Shown here piece after piece: positions 3,650-31,404 of a DNA stretch of 43,872 nucleotides (within the stretch, counting starts at the first letter, position 1; every line of letters begins with the position of its first letter). Source of the stretch: a virus. Both the position numbers and the translations under genes were made by a program. Where the stretch lies: positions 1 through 43,872 of IMG/VR virus record IMGVR_UViG_3300012927_000010; one strand, 5' to 3'. The notes under the pieces are model-generated. The model saw only the letters and a program-made list of their open reading frames with translations, did no database searches and was not told the DNA's origin.

Positions 3650-4227
3650 AGATTCACCGCCTGTAGGAATAGGAGTTTACGAGCTTGATTCCTTTCATTA
3701 TATGCAGTGATATTTGCATTTGACGCACACTGAGCCGCCATTTCTCGGAAGTTTGGTGGATTTTGAAGACTAGCGGCGATAAATAGCTTGTACTGCTTGA
3801 ATCCAGTGACACCCAAACCATACATCAGGTCCAAAGCAGCAGATTTGCAGGTCTCGGGCCACGAGGAGAATAGAGGAAATGTCTCATTGAGCGCGGCAAC
3901 GAAAGTGGCAAGTCGGGATTCGCAAAGAAAGTCGATTGCTCCTTGCGGCAGACGGACTTCGGTATATTTTGCATAAGTTGAGGCCGGAAAGTCGAATGGA
4001 GCCTCTTTGATGTTCGTATAATCGATAGAAATCTGCGTAATCGAGGCAGGAGCGCCATTGAACTGAAATGGTAGGCTCTGAGCCTCAGTGAGCCCGATGG
4101 CGCAGCCCAGACCGATGGTCACTAATGGCGAAGGTATGCCGCTGATCTTTCTGGAATCAAGATAGAAAAAATTGGTACACCCTTCCCATTTCTTCAAATT
4201 CTGGATTGTAAGTTCAATGAAATCCAT
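3646..4227 (-). CDS. Lysozyme-type endolysin
   Basis: This 193-residue protein is read from ATG 4227 behind a perfect AGGAGG. Residues 10-45 follow the phage lysozyme pattern: a glutamate in KKWEG (E15), an aspartate nine residues later in FYLDS (D24), then VTIGLGCAIG, similar in spacing to the catalytic Glu and Asp of T4-type lysozymes. The C-terminal half contains ALDLMYGLG, common in lysozyme-like folds. No signal peptide, so release would need the holin-like partner that overlaps its end. It would cut the glycan chains of peptidoglycan. The fold assignment rests on motifs only. Confidence 0.7.
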   Translation of the reverse strand: MDFIELTIQNLKKWEGCTNFFYLDSRKISGIPSPLVTIGLGCAIGLTEAQSLPFQFNGAPASITQISIDYTNIKEAPFDFPASTYAKYTEVRLPQGAIDFLCESRLATFVAALNETFPLFSSWPETCKSAALDLMYGLGVTGFKQYKLFIAASLQNPPNFREMAAQCASNANITAYNERNQARKLLFLQAVNL

Positions 4228-4318
4228 ATTCCTCCTTCCAGATAATGATAAAATAAAAGCATCGTCACCAGCGGCCTTCCAGGGCTGCACTGACATAAAG
4301 CTCAGAAGGAGAGCACCG

Positions 4319-4870
4319 ATGCCTAATTTGAATTATAGAGCACCTCGTCCCCCAATTCACGTAATAGGTCCATCCATAGCATATATCGTTCTTACTCGTG
4401 GACAAGTATGCTTAGTAGATGCCGATATCGCGGATGATTTGGGAAAATTTCTATGGCTAGCTAATTGGGCCGAATCAAGCCGGAAATTTTATGCTAAAAG
4501 GAGATTTGGAAGTAAACAAGAATTCTTACATCATTTCATTCTAAACCATATCCCACCATTGATGGTCGATCATATCAATGGAAATACCTTGGATAATCGA
4601 AGATCGAATCTTCAACTCATTAGCAGGCAAGGTAATTCCCACAAAGGATGTGTGCAAAAAAATAATACTAGTGGATCGAGAGGAGTCAGTTTTCATTCTA
4701 GAGACAACATGTGGCAGGCTGGTATTTGCATTAATAAGAAGACAAGACATCTCGGAACATTCCTATCTCAGCAAGAAGCAATTGATGTTTACAATATAGC
4801 CAAAGAAGAACTTCTTGACAGTCTTGGATGTGTGGCTCCCAAAAATGTATGGTCTGAAAGGAGTAAATAA
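4319..4870 (+). CDS. HNH endonuclease with AP2 DNA-binding domain
   Basis: This 183-residue protein is read from ATG 4319 behind AAGGAG. The HNH core lies at about residues 70-100: HH (71-72), VDHINGN (83-89) and the LDNRRSNL ending typical of this family. An AP2-like domain follows (about 118-165: SRGVSFHSRDNMWQAGI, then HLGTF and QQEAIDVYN). This is the layout of free-standing phage homing endonucleases, which cut DNA at related sites and spread by repair. It opens a short plus-strand island inside minus-strand late genes, consistent with insertion as a mobile gene. Confidence 0.9.
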   Translation: MPNLNYRAPRPPIHVIGPSIAYIVLTRGQVCLVDADIADDLGKFLWLANWAESSRKFYAKRRFGSKQEFLHHFILNHIPPLMVDHINGNTLDNRRSNLQLISRQGNSHKGCVQKNNTSGSRGVSFHSRDNMWQAGICINKKTRHLGTFLSQQEAIDVYNIAKEELLDSLGCVAPKNVWSERSK

Positions 4871-5355
4871 TGGACACTCTAGCCAAAACAACCTTTTTCG
4901 TGCATGTGCTCCTGATCGCAATAATCTTGTGGACGAAGATATATCGTGCATTACCATGGTTGCTGGGCGCGGTCGCCTTCAGCTTCTTTGCCGCGATCTT
5001 GAATCAATTGATTTGCGATCACTTCGGTCAGAACGGTGAGATTTATAGGGTCGCCTATTTTAGGATCGCGGTGCTGTGTATTTTCCTCTTTGCGCTCGCA
5101 GCGTGGACATCCATCCATCACTGGAATCCGTACATCTGCTCAATTGGGCTCCTGATGGCCCTGGACGACGTTTGCGACCTCGCTGGCATACTAGCACTAG
5201 GTTTTCATCACATCGGCCTCATGCAAGCCATACAGACGGCGCTACGGTGGCCAAATCTTCTTACACTCGTCATCTATTGTGGACTTCTCTTGCTGTACGC
5301 TAGAGACGTATCTATTCCAGCGAAAGGAGAACCCTATGAGCGAACAGGAAATTGA
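4870..5355 (+). CDS. Polytopic membrane protein of unknown function
   Basis: This 161-residue protein has four or five hydrophobic segments (about residues 7-22, 26-48, 62-82, 88-110 and 130-148). The start shares one base with the stop of the HNH gene (TAATG), so the two are coupled. The short hydrophilic tail reads SIPAKGEPYERTGN. It might affect the host membrane or exclusion of other phages, or serve lysis. None of this is shown. It is absent from the families I can name. Confidence 0.65.
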   Translation: MDTLAKTTFFVHVLLIAIILWTKIYRALPWLLGAVAFSFFAAILNQLICDHFGQNGEIYRVAYFRIAVLCIFLFALAAWTSIHHWNPYICSIGLLMALDDVCDLAGILALGFHHIGLMQAIQTALRWPNLLTLVIYCGLLLLYARDVSIPAKGEPYERTGN

Positions 5356-7112: not shown

Positions 7113-9347
7113 TTATGGACATGTCGTTGCCGTCCCTCTATATAAATTTCCGCTCGCATCCAAACATGCCAATGCGTTACCGGTTCCAGCAAGAGGACTG
7201 ATCTTCAAAGTTCCTCCGCTTGAAACCGAAACTTGTCCAGTAGAACCAGCGGTAAAAGCGCCGAGCACATCAACTGCCGATTGATGGAAGTAGAAATGGT
7301 TTGCGGTAGTGTCAAAACCGAAGCTTCCCACCCTGTCTTCAAATGACAAGATATTCATGTTTTTAGGAAAGGTACTGGAACGGATACATATTGCAGAACC
7401 AATACCTGTACTGTAAGGTCCGGCATTTCCTTCGATGCAACTTCCTCCCAATCCTGTCCCTCCACGCGGCATATCCATCACAATTCCGTTTGCAAATTGA
7501 CCGAAAATGTTGATAGGGTTTGGCGCCTGCATATGGCCACCGTTGAAGTTATATCGTAGCGTTCCTCCTTGCTCATCTACGAAATTTCTAATCTCAAAAA
7601 TCATGTTTCCGTAGGTGACATTGTTGCCTGCAACTCGCAATGACATCGCTGCCGTTCCAGAACCCGGTATAGACATAGTATTGCCGGTGGTTTGTAGGAA
7701 AATATCCTGCTCTAACGCGGCAGCATTGGCGGGATTCTCCACTGATGCTCCAGCAGTCCACGGAACATTATTGGTTTCGAGTATTTCGTTTGCTCCATTC
7801 GCATCGACTGAAAGAACTTCTGCTCCACCATATACATGATAAGCAGAGCCGACAATTGTCTGCTGAGAACCTAAAATTGGAGGACATGAGCCAAAGGTTC
7901 CCGCCTGCAACAAGCCACAGATATAATGCGAGGAATCGGCTGCTCCAAACATGAAATATGACGTTCTCCAAATAACATCTGGATCATCACTCATGAAGCC
8001 GTGCGTACCCCCTTGGATGATGAGTGAGCCGACAATATGAGGCTTTTGTGATTGAAAGGTAATAGGACTGGCATTTGTAATATTGATCTGTTCAGGCTGA
8101 CCATTCGGACTGACGATCCAAGCATAGCCAGTACCAATAGAACCCTGAATAGCAGTACAGCCCGTAGTCTTCGTCAGCAAAGTCTGCACAGGAAAGCTTT
8201 GCGCAACGTCGGTAGTGGTTGTACAGACTGCGCTAGGAGTCAGAGTGCTGGACACTTGAAGGGTATACAAAAAGGTTGATCCGAAATGAACAGAGCCGGG
8301 CTGTGTTGGATGACCATTATCCAAAATGGTTCCGGTATCGACTGCACTTTGTGTCAGCAGCAAATAGTTTCCGGAAGAAAGATCGGTCATACTTAGAACT
8401 GGACTTCTATCGCCAGTACCAGTAGTCGAAGTCACGGTTCCTACAGGGTAAGAAGTATTCTGTGTGCCATTCATTTTTATCATGGAGCAACCTTCAGAAC
8501 TTGCCGAGACCCATCCGCAATCCATGCTTCCATAGACATATTTCCATGCACTATCACCAGCAGAGCGAACATTGAAATTGGCGCTCTCTCCTTGACTTAT
8601 TCCGAGTCGCCGATAAAAACCCCCTTCATAGATAGTCTTGCTGGTCGTTTCTGCTTGATACGGGCTTGGCAATGTGCCAACGAATCCCACATCTGATCCG
8701 GGACCATAACTATTGCCATTGAGAAATAGCAACTGATTGACAAGATCTGTATGTGCCACCACTGGACCGAAGAAATTTCCAGTCATATCAACACAGACAA
8801 GACAGTTTGCGGTCAAAAAATAGTTGTTGGCTCCATTGATGTTAGTAGTTCCTGGGCTACTTGTGATGATTTGATCGCCCGGAGGTGCAGTTACGACACA
8901 TTCTTGACCTGGAAGGACGCCGCATCCGGTTCCTCCAGGACCAACTGGTCCAGTTGGTCCGAATTCTCCAACTGTGAACTGAAATGGTCCATAAGTACCG
9001 CCATATTGAGGTCTTATCGTGTAGGCGTATTGTCCGGGCTGAAGAAACCAAGCACCGAAGTTTCCTTCTCCATCTGTCTGCGCCGTACAAGCGGATGTGC
9101 CCTGCAAGACAACCTGTGTTGCCGTCGAACAGGGCGATGTTGATGAAGCCGACGGATAGGTATTAGCCAATGTTGTACAGGTCAATCCGCTGCACGTATA
9201 GAAGTGAATCGTCGCAAAAGGAAGCGCATACACGGGCAACTGTTGGCCGCTTCCGCTTACTGTACTAGCAAAGGGGGCATCAAAGCGAAAATTCTGGCCA
9301 TAAGCTAATGCAGGAAGTAGCGCGAGAATTAATAAAAGTCGCTTCAT
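7113..9347 (-). CDS. Large tail fibre/tip protein with signal peptide
   Basis: This 744-residue protein begins with a textbook Sec signal peptide (MKRLLLILALLPALAYGQ). Residues 35-128 form a Cys-containing beta domain (LPVYALPFATIHFYT, TQVVLQGT, GQYAYTIRPQYGGTYGPF) that I associate with Acidobacteriota surface and prophage proteins. A short collagen-like GPTGPVGPGG stretch lies at about 130-139, then a long Gly/Ser/Thr-rich beta region. The end contains VSVSSGGTLKISPLAGTGNA, as in fibre tips. The start overlaps the preceding gene by 4 bases. It is probably the main host-recognition protein. Confidence 0.7.
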   Translation of the reverse strand: MKRLLLILALLPALAYGQNFRFDAPFASTVSGSGQQLPVYALPFATIHFYTCSGLTCTTLANTYPSASSTSPCSTATQVVLQGTSACTAQTDGEGNFGAWFLQPGQYAYTIRPQYGGTYGPFQFTVGEFGPTGPVGPGGTGCGVLPGQECVVTAPPGDQIITSSPGTTNINGANNYFLTANCLVCVDMTGNFFGPVVAHTDLVNQLLFLNGNSYGPGSDVGFVGTLPSPYQAETTSKTIYEGGFYRRLGISQGESANFNVRSAGDSAWKYVYGSMDCGWVSASSEGCSMIKMNGTQNTSYPVGTVTSTTGTGDRSPVLSMTDLSSGNYLLLTQSAVDTGTILDNGHPTQPGSVHFGSTFLYTLQVSSTLTPSAVCTTTTDVAQSFPVQTLLTKTTGCTAIQGSIGTGYAWIVSPNGQPEQINITNASPITFQSQKPHIVGSLIIQGGTHGFMSDDPDVIWRTSYFMFGAADSSHYICGLLQAGTFGSCPPILGSQQTIVGSAYHVYGGAEVLSVDANGANEILETNNVPWTAGASVENPANAAALEQDIFLQTTGNTMSIPGSGTAAMSLRVAGNNVTYGNMIFEIRNFVDEQGGTLRYNFNGGHMQAPNPINIFGQFANGIVMDMPRGGTGLGGSCIEGNAGPYSTGIGSAICIRSSTFPKNMNILSFEDRVGSFGFDTTANHFYFHQSAVDVLGAFTAGSTGQVSVSSGGTLKISPLAGTGNALACLDASGNLYRGTATTCP

Positions 9348-20479: not shown

Positions 20480-21754
20480 TTACGCCTGTCCTAAGATGCC
20501 AGACGGGATTGCGATGCCGCTTGCAAAGGCATTCTCGCGGGTTTGAACCATCCCGAGCTGTAATTCGCTGATCATGTAGAACACCACCGCAGAAGCCTGA
20601 CCACCACTAGCTCCGATGACACCGAAGAGCGTTTGCCCTGCGACATCGTAGAAGTCGTCTGCCTTGGTCTGGATCTGGAAAGCATTCTTTAGGTTGAGGA
20701 AGTCGATGTAACCCGGCAACGCGCGGGGGTTGGGAAGAAACTCCCGTCCACCGATGGTGCTAGGAGTCTTCCGTTTGAGCATGTCGACTGATTCATCGCC
20801 CTTGAGCTGGGCCATGTCGATATGCTGCACCAGAAGTGCATTTTGTTCCCATGCGGCAAGCTCGGAAGGAGTTGCATGAGCAACCAATTCCTCGCCATCG
20901 TTCTCCATACCCTTAGAAAACTCCATTTGGGTCTGCAATGCGCGGACGATCTGAGGAGTCAGAGCACCATTGACTGCGACGGAAGGAGTGTTGTACTTTC
21001 CGGGCCATGCCGAACGCTGCACGCCCATCCAGTTTCCCGTGTTGGTACCTACTTGGTAGTAGCGGAGACCGAACATGCCGGAGTTGGCCTGACCCGAAGA
21101 TCCAGAGATTAGCAACTTCATGCCAGCAGTGATCGTGCCAGTAGCGATGCCCGTATTCAACCAAACAGTATTCGAAAGGATATCGGAATCCTGAATGGTG
21201 ATGGTGGCAACAAAAGTTCCACCTACCGCCGTCCAGACATCCACATCCTGATCGTCAAGGAAGAAGTTGGCGTTGTTGACCACGATGCCGACCGTGTTTC
21301 CGCCTTGAGCAACGAGCGAAACGACCGTATCGAGGGTATTCGATCCATCACCTTGGAGGGTGATGTCGAGGAAGTCGGCGAAGAGCTTCGGAGCAATCGA
21401 CCGGGTAAGAGTAGCGAAGTTCTCAATCGCCTTCTCATCCGAATCGGTTGCATACTCAGCTTGCCGGGTATAGCTGAAGGCGTGAATGAAGCAGGTTGTG
21501 GTCAACTGACCGGGAACTTGGGTCGGGCCAGAACCGATGCCCATATCCGCACCGTTCATATTGCCAACGCGAGGCTTACCGCCGCGAGATGGCATGGTCG
21601 GAATACGACAGGGGCGGTCAGAAACCGGCTTGACGGATGTATTTTTCTGGATGCGCTTGCGAAGGACGGATGCGGAAAGCGAAAGGTCTTCGAGTTCCGG
21701 GCGGACGTACTCTTGCTCACTGGCAAGAGCCTGCATGGAATTGGCGATGCCCAT
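20480..21754 (-). CDS. Major capsid (coat) protein
   Basis: This 424-residue protein has GAGG 9 bases before ATG 21754 and follows the scaffold gene, the standard order. The size is near P22-type coats. An N-terminal helix (residues 7-40) is followed by HK97-like mixed segments, and residues 229-254 contain GLRYYQ, NTG, RSAW and PGK. The part from about 260 includes ALTPQIVRALQTQMEFSKG and AHATPSELAAWEQ, which resembles the C-terminal half of siphovirus and podovirus coats. A truncated near-copy of residues 229-254 ends the small protein at 23192-23488. The gene ends TAA, directly followed by an in-frame TTG start. Confidence 0.8.
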   Translation of the reverse strand: MGIANSMQALASEQEYVRPELEDLSLSASVLRKRIQKNTSVKPVSDRPCRIPTMPSRGGKPRVGNMNGADMGIGSGPTQVPGQLTTTCFIHAFSYTRQAEYATDSDEKAIENFATLTRSIAPKLFADFLDITLQGDGSNTLDTVVSLVAQGGNTVGIVVNNANFFLDDQDVDVWTAVGGTFVATITIQDSDILSNTVWLNTGIATGTITAGMKLLISGSSGQANSGMFGLRYYQVGTNTGNWMGVQRSAWPGKYNTPSVAVNGALTPQIVRALQTQMEFSKGMENDGEELVAHATPSELAAWEQNALLVQHIDMAQLKGDESVDMLKRKTPSTIGGREFLPNPRALPGYIDFLNLKNAFQIQTKADDFYDVAGQTLFGVIGASGGQASAVVFYMISELQLGMVQTRENAFASGIAIPSGILGQA

Positions 21755-21916: not shown

Positions 21917-23182
21917 CTACTTTCGCGACCATGTGACTGGATTTTTGCGTCCGACAATGTAAGCTTGACTCTTCACCAACATGCTCTGTGGTGTGCGGGT
22001 AAGATCGACCTTGAGATTCTGCGTCTGCGGAGCTCCGGCGATGCGTTCGAACTTGAGTTCTCCAACTTCGTGAGAGAGATTCGTCTTTTGGAATGATGGC
22101 TTAGCTGCACTCGCAACAGGCTTACCTTTACGTTCTGCTATTACATCGCCCACAATACGCTTTGCAGCGCCCTGGATGATCTTCTTGTGCTCGGACTGTA
22201 CGCGCTGGGTATACTGCGCCTTATTGTTCGCCTTCAGATAGGCCTTCAGGGCATTCTGATAAGGCTGATTGATGGCAACGCGAGCGTTGATTTCTTCGCG
22301 GAAGGCAGTGCGAACCTTGCCGATCTCGTCCGCAGTCAATTTGGTGCTACCGAGAACCTTCTGCGCCTCAGTTACCATCAAACTCTGCGAAGTCGGAGTA
22401 ATCGTTGCATTCCATTCGATATCGCGGAGGCGAGTTGTAGCGTCTTCCTGATTCTGCGGCTGTTGCTGTTGAGTTTCAGCCCTCTTGACCTCAGCCGATG
22501 CAACTGGTTTATTCGCCATCGCTGAAATTCCATCGAATGCCTTCTTGATGGCAGCATATCCTTCGATGAGTTGCTGTACGGATGGATCGTCACTGCTCTG
22601 CGGAATGATCCGATCAAGTAGTTTGAATTGCAGCGGTAAGTCCTGCTCGTGGAAGTAGCCGACAACCGCTTTTGCCACGATGGATGAGTAACCATCTGGG
22701 TTCATCTCCGCAAACTTGTTCAACGCTTCGGGAACGATCTTCTGGAAAGCCTCAGGATTTGCTTCGGCCATCTGGCCAACTACCTTGGTATCACCTGCCT
22801 GGAATGCAGAATCGAATTCACGCCAGAAGGTTCGCTCGCCAAGAGTCTCTTCAATGACTTGATCGATAGGCATTGCATCGGGAGTTTCCTGATCTTCAGA
22901 GAGACGCTTGACGGACTCCAGTACCGCATCGATGCCCTTCAGTCCTTCCGGGTGGCGCTTGCCTACCTCGGTGGCATCATAGATGGCCTTGCGAACCTGT
23001 GCGACGGTCTTCGGGTCTTTGCCTTGGAAGCTGTCTTTGATGGACTTCCAGAGAGGTGCGCCAGAAAGAGATTCGCCAGTGGTTTCGCCAACGCCTTCAG
23101 AGCCTTCGGTGCCTTCTGCGGTTTCCGCGCCTTCTACTGGCTCAATTACTTCCTCTACTGGAGTTTCGAGAACTTCATCCAT
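21917..23182 (-). CDS. Capsid scaffolding-type protein
   Basis: This 421-residue protein is acidic at the start (residues 1-45, Glu/Thr/Val-rich), then mainly helical with Gln-rich stretches near 238-245. Its C-terminal end is basic (VGRKNPVTWSRK), typical of scaffolds that bind coat electrostatically. It lies between portal and coat. GGAG precedes ATG 23182. No protease motif was noticed. Likely the internal assembly core removed or released after packaging. Confidence 0.7.
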   Translation of the reverse strand: MDEVLETPVEEVIEPVEGAETAEGTEGSEGVGETTGESLSGAPLWKSIKDSFQGKDPKTVAQVRKAIYDATEVGKRHPEGLKGIDAVLESVKRLSEDQETPDAMPIDQVIEETLGERTFWREFDSAFQAGDTKVVGQMAEANPEAFQKIVPEALNKFAEMNPDGYSSIVAKAVVGYFHEQDLPLQFKLLDRIIPQSSDDPSVQQLIEGYAAIKKAFDGISAMANKPVASAEVKRAETQQQQPQNQEDATTRLRDIEWNATITPTSQSLMVTEAQKVLGSTKLTADEIGKVRTAFREEINARVAINQPYQNALKAYLKANNKAQYTQRVQSEHKKIIQGAAKRIVGDVIAERKGKPVASAAKPSFQKTNLSHEVGELKFERIAGAPQTQNLKVDLTRTPQSMLVKSQAYIVGRKNPVTWSRK

Positions 23183-23191
23183 GGTGATCTC

Positions 23192-23488
23192 CTAAATTCT
23201 TCCGGGATATGCTGATCGTTCGAGGCCCAAATAGCTCCCAGTATTGCTTGGTATTTGATAATAACGAAGGCCCCATAACGAAGATGGCAAATTGCGATAC
23301 TCTTCTGGCAGAGAGCCAACTCCCATTTCATATAGGCTATTTGGATCGAATTTTCCATGACTCCCGCCGAATGGATGCGCAATTACCTCAGACTTCCACC
23401 CGCCAATCGGCGCAAAGAAATAGGTAGGCGCAACTGCTGCGACCGGTGCAGCCAAGCCGAATATCTTTAGAAAACTTCTGCGATTCAT
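23192..23488 (-). CDS. Twin-arginine-type signal protein ending in a coat-protein segment
   Basis: This 98-residue protein opens with MNRRSFLKIFGLAAPVAAVA, which fits the twin-arginine signal (RRxFLK plus a hydrophobic stretch). Then comes FFAPIGGW. Residues 73-98 align without gaps to coat residues 229-254, with 15 of 26 positions identical by my count (GLRYYQ, NTG, G, RSA and PG shared, the rest mostly conservative). It overlaps the portal stop by 4 bases and is 9 bases before the scaffold start. It may be a truncated coat paralogue with a new N-terminus or a specialised assembly or envelope protein. Function unknown. Confidence 0.75.
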   Translation of the reverse strand: MNRRSFLKIFGLAAPVAAVAPTYFFAPIGGWKSEVIAHPFGGSHGKFDPNSLYEMGVGSLPEEYRNLPSSLWGLRYYQIPSNTGSYLGLERSAYPGRI

Positions 23489-25899
23489 ACCGTCCCCGTT
23501 CCCAGCGTACCGGGCGCTGCTGCCTTTTTGTTGACCTGCGTATTCGCTTCTGGGGCTGCTTGCTGAATTCCAGCTTGCTTATTCATTTGAACCTGAGCGT
23601 CGGCGGGCTCATCTTTGAAATTTATCGACTCGCTTGGCGGTTTCATCTGCTGCATAGCTGCCGCCTTTGCTTGTGCCTGCTGTGCCATGAATTGATCGTG
23701 AACGCCTTTGTGTAGTCTAACATTCTGGACGCCAAGTTTGGCATTCTCAATTTCTTCCACTTCGCCGATGTTCTGCCGAATCCAGCAATCTTCACCCGAA
23801 AGATACTCTTGACACTTTGCAGACTCCCACTGATGGTAATCGTCGGCCTCGGGCATGAGAGAGGGAAGTTGTGCAGGTGGAGGTGCATAGGGAAGTTCGG
23901 GCAAGCCTTGTGCGCGAGCCTGTAGCGCCTGTGTGGCGTGTTGAACGTTGTAAGCGTCAATCGCTGGCTGATTATCCTGCGGGGGCTCGCGGAGCAATGT
24001 CTCAAACTCCCTCGTCTGTTTCTTGTAAGCAATCGCAGGTGCCATCACCAAATCAGGATTACCGTTCAATTGTAAGAATTCCTGCCAATTGTCGGGCGAT
24101 TCGAATAGGGTCTGGCCGATAGGCGATTGCGCAGCCATCTGGATAATTGTTTGTAGGTTTTGACGCTTCGATGCCGTGGTCTCAGGGAAACTCGATTCCG
24201 AGATGTGCGCATGGAATTTGCCCTTTTTCAACCGCTCCAATTTGATCTGAACCGTCTTACCATCTCCTGAAGTGACTGCAATCTCTGATCCGTGGTCAGG
24301 ATTGTTCGAAGCCAACAGCGCGGCCTTGGTATAGATTCCACCAAACATCCGCTGCATCGAGGCCCATGCAGGTCCAAGCATTCCCATTGCCTGTGAGCGA
24401 TCCATGGCTTGCCCAGAGGCTGTCTGATCGGGTTTGGCATTGCCTTCGAGCGCCGGAAGAGCTCCGACAAGCTCTTGAGAAAGCATCCGTAACTCTGTGA
24501 TCGCCTCATCGAAACCTGCAGGCGCTTCGGCTTGTGGTTCACGATAAAAGCTTTCTTCGATTGCATGGGTAGGATCTGCTGCCTTGAGCAACACAACATT
24601 TCCAGGCTTGGAGCGTTGATCCACAATCGCGTCATAATCTTCCGCATCGCCACGAAAATAGGTGAAACTCCAGCCCTTCTCATAGTTCTCGCGCTTGGCG
24701 TTCATGTAGTCGTTGAACGCATCCTGCACGACCTTATCCGGCTCCATCAGAGCGCCGCCGCTCATTCCATCCCGCTCAACAGGGAAACCTACATTGATAG
24801 CATCATCAGGACATTCGTTCCATGATTCAGAGTAGTTCTTGCCAATGTACTTGACGTGTGCACCATCAGGGAAGAGAAGTTCCATCATCTCCTGAATAGT
24901 CTTTGTGCCATCTGACATCGAACCATCCGGCATTTCACCGGTGTAGGGTTCGTCCATCGATTTATCGGTGAACCCATCAGGTCGAAGGAAGCAGTTCATT
25001 TCGGTCGTCAGATAAGATAGTGCCATGCCGGTCAGATAGTACGACTTTTTAGCCTGCCGAGCGCCGATACGGGCATAGCGTTCCCAGTCGGACTCGCCTA
25101 GTCCAGCCTCACCGGGGGCAATCTCATCCTTGATCCAATCGTTCTGCGCTTTTGCGGTCAGTGCATCGAGATCGTCATACAGAAAACAATAGAGAGCATC
25201 GCAGAAACTATCACAAACAATAGGAACTTTAGATTCGAGCGTCCCATAAATACGCGTAGTCTCCATAGAGCGCGGCGATCCGTCTGCATTCTCGCCAAAC
25301 TTTGCTCTTGACTTCAAAGTCCCAGTCCAAGCTACACAGCGGCCTGACAATTCGAACATCCGAGCAATATCCTGCTGAATCTTCTTTACATCATTGTTCT
25401 GATCGAAGAGGTGTCGGAAACCCTCAGCCGTCTCTGCCGCTTCAATATCTTCAGATTGTCCCGGTCTATCAGGAGTAAAGTCCACCGCAGGCTCGTTTTG
25501 GGTGAGTACGGCGTCCAGTGAGCGTCGACGTATCCTAAAAATGTTGTATGCGCCCATGTACTCAGGGCATTGAATAGACTGTCCTCCACCAACATTGACA
25601 TATCCACCAGCTGTACCAACTTGATAAACTCCAGTTCCCCAGTTCGGGTAAACGTGCTGCACGCCATCATCATAGAAGCGCAGGATTCGATCCATAAGCA
25701 CTTCAATGCGGCGGTCGTATACATCACGGGCCTGATATTTTTTCACTAACCGATCAAAGGCGTCCTGCAATATCTCGGGGAGGTCACGGTTATTTTCGCC
25801 ATAGGTAGGCGGATCATCGCTCTGTGGAACAGCTTCGGGCGATGCCTCGTCCGCTAACTGCTCCTCTTCCTGATCCTCGATAATAGGGCTAGTAGCCAT
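23485..25899 (-). CDS. Portal protein
   Basis: This 804-residue protein sits between the terminase block and scaffold/coat, the standard place. Middle sequences such as NIFRIRRRSLDAVLTQNEP, FRHLFDQNNDVKKIQQDI and QTASGQAMDRSQAMGMLG are of the kind seen in large podovirus and siphovirus portals. The long Gln/Ala-rich C-terminal tail (about 700-804) would form a barrel or crown inside the head. It forms the ring through which DNA enters and leaves. The size is close to P22-like portals. The start overlaps the upstream gene by 11 bases. Confidence 0.85.
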   Translation of the reverse strand: MATSPIIEDQEEEQLADEASPEAVPQSDDPPTYGENNRDLPEILQDAFDRLVKKYQARDVYDRRIEVLMDRILRFYDDGVQHVYPNWGTGVYQVGTAGGYVNVGGGQSIQCPEYMGAYNIFRIRRRSLDAVLTQNEPAVDFTPDRPGQSEDIEAAETAEGFRHLFDQNNDVKKIQQDIARMFELSGRCVAWTGTLKSRAKFGENADGSPRSMETTRIYGTLESKVPIVCDSFCDALYCFLYDDLDALTAKAQNDWIKDEIAPGEAGLGESDWERYARIGARQAKKSYYLTGMALSYLTTEMNCFLRPDGFTDKSMDEPYTGEMPDGSMSDGTKTIQEMMELLFPDGAHVKYIGKNYSESWNECPDDAINVGFPVERDGMSGGALMEPDKVVQDAFNDYMNAKRENYEKGWSFTYFRGDAEDYDAIVDQRSKPGNVVLLKAADPTHAIEESFYREPQAEAPAGFDEAITELRMLSQELVGALPALEGNAKPDQTASGQAMDRSQAMGMLGPAWASMQRMFGGIYTKAALLASNNPDHGSEIAVTSGDGKTVQIKLERLKKGKFHAHISESSFPETTASKRQNLQTIIQMAAQSPIGQTLFESPDNWQEFLQLNGNPDLVMAPAIAYKKQTREFETLLREPPQDNQPAIDAYNVQHATQALQARAQGLPELPYAPPPAQLPSLMPEADDYHQWESAKCQEYLSGEDCWIRQNIGEVEEIENAKLGVQNVRLHKGVHDQFMAQQAQAKAAAMQQMKPPSESINFKDEPADAQVQMNKQAGIQQAAPEANTQVNKKAAAPGTLGTGTV

Positions 25900-28088: not shown

Positions 28089-28385
28089 CTAGTTCTCCTG
28101 TTGCTTATCACGTTCCAAAGCTGCTACCTGTTGCTCGAAAAGTCTCCGAACGTCGCCCGAGTTCTTTGCATGAATAATACCATCATCGGGCTTGGCGGCT
28201 TTAGAGGCGATCTTTTCGACTAGAGCATCGTACTTTGCTTCGATTCGATCTGCTCGATGTTTCTCGTCTTTTAGTTGCAAGATTGTAATGCTGAGATTGT
28301 CATTGGTGGTTTGCTTATTCCGCAGGAGTTCCTTCAATCTATCTAGTTCGCCGATGGTACAGAGACCTATTGCCTTCCAGACCAT
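28089..28385 (-). CDS. Small coiled-coil protein
   Basis: This 98-residue protein is mostly heptad-patterned helix (residues 12-60, LDRLKELLRNKQTTND and KDEKHRADRIEAKYDAL), ending in another helix. The start lies 19 bases inside the terminase large subunit gene. It could be an assembly or packaging helper. Unknown function. Confidence 0.6.
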   Translation of the reverse strand: MVWKAIGLCTIGELDRLKELLRNKQTTNDNLSITILQLKDEKHRADRIEAKYDALVEKIASKAAKPDDGIIHAKNSGDVRRLFEQQVAALERDKQQEN

Positions 28386-30013
28386 GCCGACCCTCTCTTG
28401 CGCTCATTCTGCGCCTTCCAGCGAAGTACAGCCATACCCTTATCGTGCATCGATCGGTCACCAAGAGATTCGTAGAATTCCTGCGCCCTAACCGATAATG
28501 GAGCTTCCAATCGAGCAGAATGCATGGAATATGCCCAGTAACGTAAAAAGTCTAGCACGTCATCTGATTTCGTCGGCTGCTTCCACACGTCTTCAGCTCT
28601 GCCAGGATGTTTCGTATCCCGAATTGCCATCGGCACCGCTTCGATTGTGTCCGTGCAGCGCGAACAGATAAAAAGCAGGGGAGTCTTCAAGGAGTAACCC
28701 CCCGCTTCTCCCTCGAAGTCATCATCGTTGCGGGTCGGCGCCATCTTTCCTGCCAGAACATCAGCCGTCTTCTTCATCATGGCGTAGAGAAAGCGCCAGC
28801 CACCGATACGCCCATTCGCAGCTTGTTCCGCCCATGGCAAACCAGCAAGACGCAATTCCTGGTTGATCGTATCCGCGGTGGAATGGCCTTTAGAGTCCTT
28901 CTCCCACGCGTCCACCGACAGGAAGTACCGTTTCATCTGCTTACGTTCGGTATCGTCCATTTTGGCAATCAACTGCCGGATAAGTTCGCCTTGCTCCACT
29001 TCCTGTACTACATGATCCAACATGAGAACCCAGACTTCTACTGGCTCCTCGATTATCACTCCAAACACATCATGAAACAGTTTAGGGGCCACCGTCCCGC
29101 CAGCGCCCCACCCACAGGCAGCGTGATGTACGAAACCGTCATCATGACCTGCCCAGCGCGGCCACCATGGCTGTATGAGCTTCGCTTCCTGCTCTGCGGT
29201 CAGGATCAGCTTCGACTCATCCCACACACCAGCAAAATACTGGCCGGCAAATGAATCGAATGAGCCCAAGAGATGTCCAGCTCGCAAACTCTGGGGCATG
29301 GCATTGAGCTTGCGTCCTTCAGTCGTCTGGTTCACGAATAGCTTGAATCGCTCCTCACTTGGCAGCGCGTAGAACTGCTTAGGTGTCAGACCTAACCCAT
29401 GAAACCAGACATAGTTGTCCCAACCAAAGAGGTGGACGAAGGCATAATCTGAAGGCCTTTCTTCCCCGATGAATCGCTTCTGAGAGAACACGCGCCTGAG
29501 AAACTCGGTTCCCACTCCTCCCGGGTTGAAGAACAGGCCCGTCTTGCATTCGCCCAACGCTGTATTCGGCCATCGGTTGCAGGAGTGGATGATCGTCAGC
29601 TCATACTCAGAGAATTGCTCCGCTTGATCCACGAAGATGTCATACAGTTCGATACCCCAGAACTTACGGTCAACCTCCTGCTGATTCTCGGCGTACATGA
29701 ACATGATCTTCGAGCCGTTGGGTAGGATGAACTCTTTATCGCCCACTCGATAGCAGTCCCGAAGCTCTGGGAATTCTTCCATGTACTTGTCAATGTGGTT
29801 CTTTTTGACCTCATCGTAAACTCGGCGGACGATTGCTCCGTTAGTTCTAGGTCTTTGCTGTCTGCGGTCAAGCATAATGCGGCGTAGTCCACCGCTTTTC
29901 CCGCCAGCTCTAGCGCCTCCCCCACCAATCCAAGTTGCAGCATCGGGGCCAGTCTTGTACATCAGCTTACCAAGTTCGAGCTGCTTTGGCTGTAGAAGAA
30001 GAGTAGTGGCCAT
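28367..30013 (-). CDS. terL: Terminase large subunit (packaging ATPase/nuclease)
   Basis: In this 548-residue protein the ATPase Walker A is at residues 30-42 (GGGGARAGGKSGG). The Walker B-like strand is at about 121-133 (IELYDIFVDQAEQ), with Gln where many families have Glu after the Asp. The nuclease half contains LSVDAWEKDSKGHS, compatible with a catalytic Asp of the RNase H-like fold. It cuts and pumps DNA into the head through the portal. The start shares a base with the upstream stop (TAATG). The small subunit is five genes upstream, more separated than usual. Confidence 0.9.
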   Translation of the reverse strand: MATTLLLQPKQLELGKLMYKTGPDAATWIGGGGARAGGKSGGLRRIMLDRRQQRPRTNGAIVRRVYDEVKKNHIDKYMEEFPELRDCYRVGDKEFILPNGSKIMFMYAENQQEVDRKFWGIELYDIFVDQAEQFSEYELTIIHSCNRWPNTALGECKTGLFFNPGGVGTEFLRRVFSQKRFIGEERPSDYAFVHLFGWDNYVWFHGLGLTPKQFYALPSEERFKLFVNQTTEGRKLNAMPQSLRAGHLLGSFDSFAGQYFAGVWDESKLILTAEQEAKLIQPWWPRWAGHDDGFVHHAACGWGAGGTVAPKLFHDVFGVIIEEPVEVWVLMLDHVVQEVEQGELIRQLIAKMDDTERKQMKRYFLSVDAWEKDSKGHSTADTINQELRLAGLPWAEQAANGRIGGWRFLYAMMKKTADVLAGKMAPTRNDDDFEGEAGGYSLKTPLLFICSRCTDTIEAVPMAIRDTKHPGRAEDVWKQPTKSDDVLDFLRYWAYSMHSARLEAPLSVRAQEFYESLGDRSMHDKGMAVLRWKAQNERKRGSAWSGRQ

Positions 30014-30924: not shown

Positions 30925-31404
30925 CTATTCCTCCAGAATCGACTTCGTTACAAATTGTACAGGGCCACCATCTTTGCCGGTGTGTTCATGCTGTGTTCTA
31001 TCGCGCCACTGCTCAGGATCGCGATTGCGAAGCCATAGTGAACAGGCATTGGTATCAGGCGGTTCAACTACATCCACAGGAACGCTGATAACCTCTTCAA
31101 ATTCAGCAGTTTTCTTGCCCTTTTCGTCGAATTCTATCCGCTTCACTTTGAATGGCTGATTGGTCGTATATTGAGCCCCGCGAGCGCGATTGAACAGTCC
31201 CTGCGCCACTTCTGAGTCTGCTACACGCTTGCCCGCACGAATGGACTCCACAAATTCTGGATGAGCCAGCTTCCAATTGTTTACTGTACTTTCGCTAACC
31301 TCAAAGAAATCAGCTATTTGAGAATCGGTAGCTCCAAGGAGACACAACTTTGTAACCTGTTCTGAATATTCCTCTCGATAGTCAGTAGGTCTACCGGCTG
31401 GCAT
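30925..31404 (-). CDS. terS: Terminase small subunit
   Basis: This 159-residue protein starts MPAGRPTDYREEYSEQVTKL, the recurrent N-terminus of phage small terminases. The helix-turn-helix at about residues 22-48 (LGATDSQIADFFEVSESTVN) would recognise the packaging site. The C-terminal part has SLWLRNRDPEQWRDR, also usual in this family. First gene of the late minus block. It partners the ATPase at 28367-30013. Confidence 0.88.
   Translation of the reverse strand: MPAGRPTDYREEYSEQVTKLCLLGATDSQIADFFEVSESTVNNWKLAHPEFVESIRAGKRVADSEVAQGLFNRARGAQYTTNQPFKVKRIEFDEKGKKTAEFEEVISVPVDVVEPPDTNACSLWLRNRDPEQWRDRTQHEHTGKDGGPVQFVTKSILEE

Follow-up and report, generated by a model that had tools for sequence, protein, structure and literature searches.

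An accessory phage gene joins a conserved Tat-type leader to an exchangeable C-terminus resembling the phage's own head or packaging proteins

The window, which is the whole 43,872-nucleotide stretch of viral DNA analyzed here (IMG/VR record IMGVR_UViG_3300012927_000010), contains a small gene between a portal-position gene and a scaffold-position gene. The gene and its surroundings are composed of the following features.

23192-23488, minus strand (read from 23488 to 23192): Tat-leader/coat-mimic gene with an ATG start, 98 residues, defined by its open reading frame and translation, with homologs among L001-L039, L144, L145, and Tunturi_2 gp99.
23372-23488, minus strand: conserved leader, residues 1-39 (MNRRSFLK...APTYFFAPIGGWKSEVIAHP), with a twin arginine, a hydrophobic stretch, and an aromatic FFAPIGGW motif (alignments A1 and A5).
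23198-23284, minus strand: coat-mimic segment, residues 69-97 (BLASTP, shuffle control, and hhalign, values below).
23485-25899, minus strand: portal-position gene, 804 residues, an open reading frame with synteny in about 40 relatives, labeled by position and size.
21917-23182, minus strand: scaffold-position gene, 421 residues, labeled by position and size.
20480-21754, minus strand: major coat gene, 424 residues, HK97 fold (AlphaFold, Foldseek, and a weak phrog_14242 match).
20996-21082, minus strand: coat residues 225-253, the copied segment, located after a strand-rich stretch (about residues 140-216) and before a strand at 258-263.
28367-30013, minus strand: terminase large subunit, 548 residues, in the same cluster as L017 8023-9657, which matches the phrog_979 terminase large subunit (E 5e-11).

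The 98-residue reading frame and its twin-arginine start (residues 1-20, MNRRSFLKIFGLAAPVAAVA) agree with a preliminary description of this DNA, as does its location, both neighbors carrying labels by position and size only. The portal-position gene lies upstream, the scaffold-position gene downstream, and the coat gene further on. The portal-position gene ends in ATGA, where its stop and the mimic-gene start overlap, and the TAG stop of the mimic gene is part of the TAGGAG that precedes the scaffold-position gene. The leader of the protein reads MNRRSFLKIFGLAAPVAAVAPTYFFAPIGGWKSEVIAHP, and its C-terminal end reads SSLWGLRYYQIPSNTGSYLGLERSAYPGRI. Pfam and PHROGs return nothing for the 98-residue protein and no family match for the portal- and scaffold-position proteins; PDB sequences contain nothing meaningful for the 98-residue protein. 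The window coat has no match among named phages. Its AlphaFold model (pLDDT 80) has the capsid of phage Pa223 as the top Foldseek match (9ny2, E 6e-10), along with many HK97-fold capsids. Elsewhere in the window, a 159-residue open reading frame (30925-31404, minus strand) shows a weak likeness to the scaffold-position protein at residues 281-350 (E 8e-5, 27% over 71 residues).

Residues 69-97 of the window protein align without gaps to coat residues 225-253, with 16 of 29 positions identical (55%) and 27 of 29 positive (93%; BLASTP E 2e-11). This alignment widens the one described earlier, between residues 73-98 and coat residues 229-254, whose 15 identities in 26 positions are confirmed by eye. 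When the whole 43.9-kb record is compared in six frames, the coat is the top match (score 104, runner-up 38), with a z of 19.9 and a maximum of 49 over 20 shuffles. The alignment also persists against a profile of 40 coat sequences (hhalign P 97%, E 2e-11, columns 222-253). The coat likeness is therefore not a chance match and survives profile comparison. The DNA of the copied segment is 60% identical, indicating an old copy. The protein has 29 of the 424 coat residues in common and lacks the complete HK97 fold, which the coat itself possesses. The L054 and L061 coats match the mimic slightly better than its own coat does (46.2 vs about 45 bits; score 108 vs 104). Judging from their position in the monomer model, particular coat segments may correspond to arms or helices.

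The leader conforms to the Tat motif S/T/N-R-R-x-F-L-K followed by a moderately hydrophobic stretch (MNRRSFLK plus IFGLAAPVAAVAPTYFFAP). IMG/VR scans with the whole protein and with its leader as queries collected some 25 other phage proteins, each with a swapped C-terminus after the leader. The leaders are of two types, A1 (...APTYFFAPIGGW) and A2 (MNRRSFFKFLGIGAATAAVAPKLLAE), and the C-termini are many and different. Residues R3, R4, and F6 are invariant in nine leaders, and alignment A5 contains the invariant positions R3, R4, F6, A13, A20, Y23, F24, F25, A26, P27, G29, and W31. TIGR01409 does not match the window protein, for which formate_TAT is the sole hit (13.3 bits). Four homologs pass the TIGR01409 cut-off of 16.7 (L012, 17.3; L025, 18.4; L033, 18.2; L027, 17.2), and the leaders of L002, L029, and Tunturi_2 score below it. 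From the four passing homologs, we infer that the product is probably targeted to the membrane or the Tat translocase. Bacterial Tat substrates with TIGR01409 or PF10518 leaders likewise contain an RRxFLK motif and a short hydrophobic stretch. The phage family differs from them in its passenger, a phage head-protein fragment, and in the A1 leader, which has the conserved FFAPIGGW and no clear AxA cleavage site.

Most carriers are metagenomic fragments, and the host is known for the Tunturiibacter phages. Among named phages, the leader finds convincing matches in Tunturi_1 and Tunturi_2; the only other hit is weak and lies in an unannotated record. The A2-type leader finds none. Sequenced bacterial genomes yield one short match, probably due to chance. 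L144 and L145 are two further carriers beside G005-G007. L005 contains tandem Tat-leader genes (4176-4553 and 4553-4879), the first with a 'YVRLAPTSLPVSAGDI' domain and the second with a portal-like segment. In most A2-type phages, the gene directly 3' of the Tat gene belongs to one cluster (c0; L033 3481-4284 and homologs in 10 other loci), is partly DUF551-like, and may encode a partner.

Each C-terminus was compared with all open reading frames of its own record, with a shuffle control, and with head-protein profiles. For 10 of the 26 leader proteins, the top own-record match is the phage's own head or packaging protein at z>5. The target is the coat in six (the window, L017, Tunturi_2, and three Tunturi_3-like phages), the portal in two, and a catalytically altered terminase nuclease domain in two. 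L019 and L086 contribute additional own head or packaging matches beyond these 10. The other 16 have no own-record match at z>5; some of their records are fragments without head genes, and G004 (z 2.4) and L002 (z 3.3) show weak coat matches.

The copied coat region varies. The C-terminus of Tunturi_2 gp99 resembles the N-terminal part of gp8, the major head protein of that phage (about residues 5-57; P 94%, z 8.5 genome-wide and 11.4 in another comparison), and that of L017 resembles residues 6-54 of its own coat (P 94%, z 7.5). G005-G007, which are records of 51.6 to 101 kb, copy coat residues 83-139 (P 92-98%, z 5.9-17). The protein copied there is the major head protein (phrog_1357), and the Tunturi_3 major head protein is matched by the G007 mimic as well. 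In L012, the likeness is to the coat segment of the window type (P 76%, E 2e-5), but its 16.7-kb contig gives no own-record match. Portal mimics are found in L019, L025, and the second gene of L005; the copied stretch lies around portal residues 405-505, varying with the protein, at E values of 1e-6 to 1e-13.

Five proteins (L022, L023, L033, L086, and L087) carry a copy of the terminase nuclease domain, 35-40% identical (E about 1e-35) to the terminase of the same phage in the cases where the contig includes it. The AlphaFold model of L033 resembles gp17 nuclease domains in Foldseek (RB49, E 5e-8; T4, 9e-8) and adopts an RNase H-like nuclease fold, which the other four share by alignment. They resemble the C-terminal domain of T4 and RB49 gp17 in this fold and differ from gp17 in that the ATPase domain is absent and a Tat leader is added. 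In all five, GVDTA is changed to GVETG or GVQTG, replacing the first catalytic Asp with Glu or Gln, and the DDR segment is deleted. The five form one clade with a support of 99/99 and a long stem. The loss of catalytic residues with retention of the fold suggests that binding rather than cutting has been kept. The terminase gene of L033 (1-2748) appears to hold an intein at about residues 123-324 (PF14890, E 1.4e-6), and a 1344-residue terminase frame in L027 (4207-8241) may hold an insert as well.

A capsid-cement origin was considered for the 'YVRLAPTSLP...PGNYGFIQ' C-termini (first gene of L005, L020, L024, and L027) and is merely suggestive (hhalign P 75% over 17 columns; P 10-34% singly). 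These C-termini were left out of the mimic count, as were L002, L011, L016, L018, L039, and L069, which bear weak coat or terminase resemblance.

Comparison of the homologs shows that this accessory phage gene is built of two modules: a conserved leader of the Tat type, and a C-terminus that can be exchanged and that imitates a head or packaging piece of the same phage. The leader is the conserved part, and the C-terminus is exchanged between phages, copying different head proteins; L012 and L016, for instance, have near-identical leaders and unrelated C-termini. The combination of a Tat-type leader and a coat mimic proposed in the preliminary description is upheld. Its idea of a coat paralog cut down to one loop is too narrow, since the copied pieces in the family include the coat N-terminus, a helical region of the coat, a segment of the portal, and the entire terminase nuclease domain. 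The homologs keep the RR motif, and many have a head-protein-like end, but the ends differ and the closest relatives lack the gene. Set against the refuting condition of the preliminary description, this answer is mixed and favors the idea.

The association between leader and copied fragment was compared with a background of other small genes. In 60 records, an own-head match is found for 7 of 17 Tat-like small genes and for 3 of 1398 other small genes (Fisher p 1e-12), a count that leaves out the terminase mimics and in which at least one of the three others is a weak scaffold match. When the records are swapped, the own record ranks first or second of 25 for nearly every positive (G016 ranks fifth), and the records scoring as well are phages with the same head family. 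The dN/dS ratio is roughly 0.1-0.3 for both leader and mimic (NG86), with dS near saturation, and both appear to be kept by selection.

These results bear on the view that the genes are recombination debris, in which a small leader-gene insert has been fused to head-gene fragments by illegitimate recombination and the fragment has no function. Head-fragment frames without a Tat leader do exist, in the terminase-portal and portal-scaffold slots: L070 5082-5315 copies coat residues 144-217, and L073 7944-8162 copies coat residues 65-80 (81%). The portal/scaffold insertion site of L041 is filled by a different, unrelated small frame (MKYENAKLVTLPNGHIAFDRP..., about 8460-8590), and the window mimic amounts to merely 29 coat residues. 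Against this view stand the strong association with the leader, the low dN/dS across leader and mimic, the single clade of terminase mimics with shared catalytic losses and an intact fold, and the distance of coat mimics from coat genes in unrelated genomes. We consider it improbable.

The gene is not fixed in the lineage of the window. Among 45 relatives of the window coat, L040, whose portal and coat are 89% and 96% identical to those of the window, has no gene between the portal- and scaffold-position genes. The gene is also absent from the near relatives L042, L043, L045, L047, L050, and L052. Compared with the corresponding site in these relatives, the window has about 295 bp cleanly inserted after the last portal codon and ahead of the ancestral TAGGAG (L052: AACGGTATAGGAGATACGCATGG). 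Presence and absence among near-identical genomes, together with the clean insertion, mark the gene as accessory, or a moron. In L002 and L017, the leader gene directly precedes the portal; its usual place in the A2 group is between terminase and portal. The distance to the coat gene is about 19-23 kb in G005-G007 and about 9.5 kb in Tunturi_2 (across the record start). Placement far from the coat, along with presence and absence, supports accessory status, and the copying is not explained by proximity to head genes. Simple local duplication is ruled out as a general cause by this distance of 9-23 kb and by the type pattern.

The main rival to the reading that we prefer, in our judgment an unlikely one, is a membrane-tethered assembly or packaging factor. 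The leader would hold at the inner membrane a copy of one side of a head contact, be it the coat N-terminus, a coat helix, the portal segment, or the terminase nuclease domain, and the copy would recruit or temporarily block the partner, thereby timing or localizing head assembly. The mimics always come from the phage's own head family, the gene lies among terminase, portal, and scaffold-position genes in many phages, and a dead nuclease domain with its fold kept would suit such a role. In T4, prohead assembly begins on a membrane-bound portal with the viral chaperone gp40 and YidC (PMC9958956), and gp40 would be comparable to the window protein as a small viral factor at that site. However, gp40 is not described as a head-protein copy, and the window gene is missing from close relatives that have the same portal, scaffold-position gene, and coat, making an essential assembly role in the window lineage unlikely. 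The copied partner also varies by phage behind one leader, the gene is distant from head genes in Tunturi_2 and the Tunturi_3-like phages, and the mimic is often equally near or nearer to the head protein of another phage.

An accessory, exchangeable gene might also serve to interfere with competitors, the mimic being a dominant-negative head subunit that targets co-infecting phages or satellites with related head proteins. The slightly greater likeness of the window mimic to the L054 and L061 coats is in line with this, but an export or membrane leader is of no obvious help to a cytoplasmic assembly poison, and the phage's own head, being of the same family as the mimic, would be at risk. We give this explanation very little chance.

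Our preferred reading, held tentatively, is that the product is an accessory bait that brings head-surface binders to the inner membrane or the Tat translocase. The C-terminus would be bound by whatever normally recognizes that head-protein surface, and the leader would take both together either as far as the inner membrane or through the Tat translocase. The likeliest partner would be a host defense sensor of coat, portal, or terminase, titrated or removed ahead of the late build-up of head proteins. The window copy would be the coat-segment version, inserted between the portal- and scaffold-position genes. The preliminary description had named a membrane-directed factor or decoy, which is borne out as a possibility.

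The bait reading draws on the own head and packaging matches (10 of 26 at z>5, plus L019 and L086), their concentration in Tat-like small genes, and the dN/dS well below 1 in leader and mimic. The accessory status of the gene, absent in near relatives, cleanly inserted, and elsewhere 9-23 kb from the coat gene, is consistent with it, as are the C-termini exchanged behind near-identical leaders, as in an arms race, and the terminase mimics that lost catalytic residues and kept the fold. Moreover, the copied proteins are reported defense triggers. STAND/Avs proteins are triggered by terminase or portal, and CapRel and Lit by coat (PMC9712102); Thoeris is triggered by coat (PMC11312562), and Avs sensing of phage proteins is summarized in PMC12931631. 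Tat hitchhiking of bound partners is established as well: according to PMC4273604, the Tat translocase exports folded partners that have no signal of their own. The hitchhiker PaoABC described there would, by analogy only, account for a Tat rather than a Sec leader on a folded binding domain. Several observations weaken the bait reading. A mimic might equally trigger a sensor instead of blocking it, own-record matches at z>5 are missing for 16 of the 26 leader proteins, and the A1-type leader has no clear AxA site and, in the window protein, is missed by TIGR01409. The mimics are also type-matched though a decoy need not be, and type-matching fits an assembly role too. A more specific form, in which the altered copies trap sensors that then travel as Tat hitchhikers to the inner membrane or across it, with piece swaps tracking the sensor of the current host, seems somewhat doubtful.

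The carriers are soil bacteriophages and include an isolated phage of Acidobacteriota, Tunturi_2. Its gp99 (PP885685, annotated as a hypothetical protein) shares its leader (SRRSFFKLFG...APKYFFAPIGGW) with the window gene, and its C-terminus is likewise a copy of the phage's own head protein. It differs in copying the coat N-terminus instead of a central segment, in the family of the coat, and in that gp99 lies outside the head operon. The description of Tunturi_2 (PMC11924767) makes no mention of a signal peptide, twin-arginine, mass spectrometry, or structural protein. The open-access literature searched yielded nothing relevant on phage structural proteins with a Tat signal or on decoys of terminase or portal, and an export leader joined to a copied head-protein piece would be a gene type for which no description was found there. 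Altered pieces of the coat, portal, and terminase of the same phage have repeatedly been attached to a conserved export leader, and all three are proteins reported to be recognized by bacterial immune sensors. If the bait reading is true, the family would represent a new kind of counter-defense and offer a route to the cognate sensors; if the assembly reading is true, it would reveal a membrane-linked step of head assembly outside T4. Either reading is directly testable since Tunturi_2 is isolated and its host culturable. In Tunturi_3, gp111 (L139 14402-14998) is annotated as 'portal protein' and has no significant similarity to the real portal gp2, and gp49 (L138 22140-22649) carries another clear Tat-type leader, MNRRQLFKGAAALVAATVLPLPALAEA.
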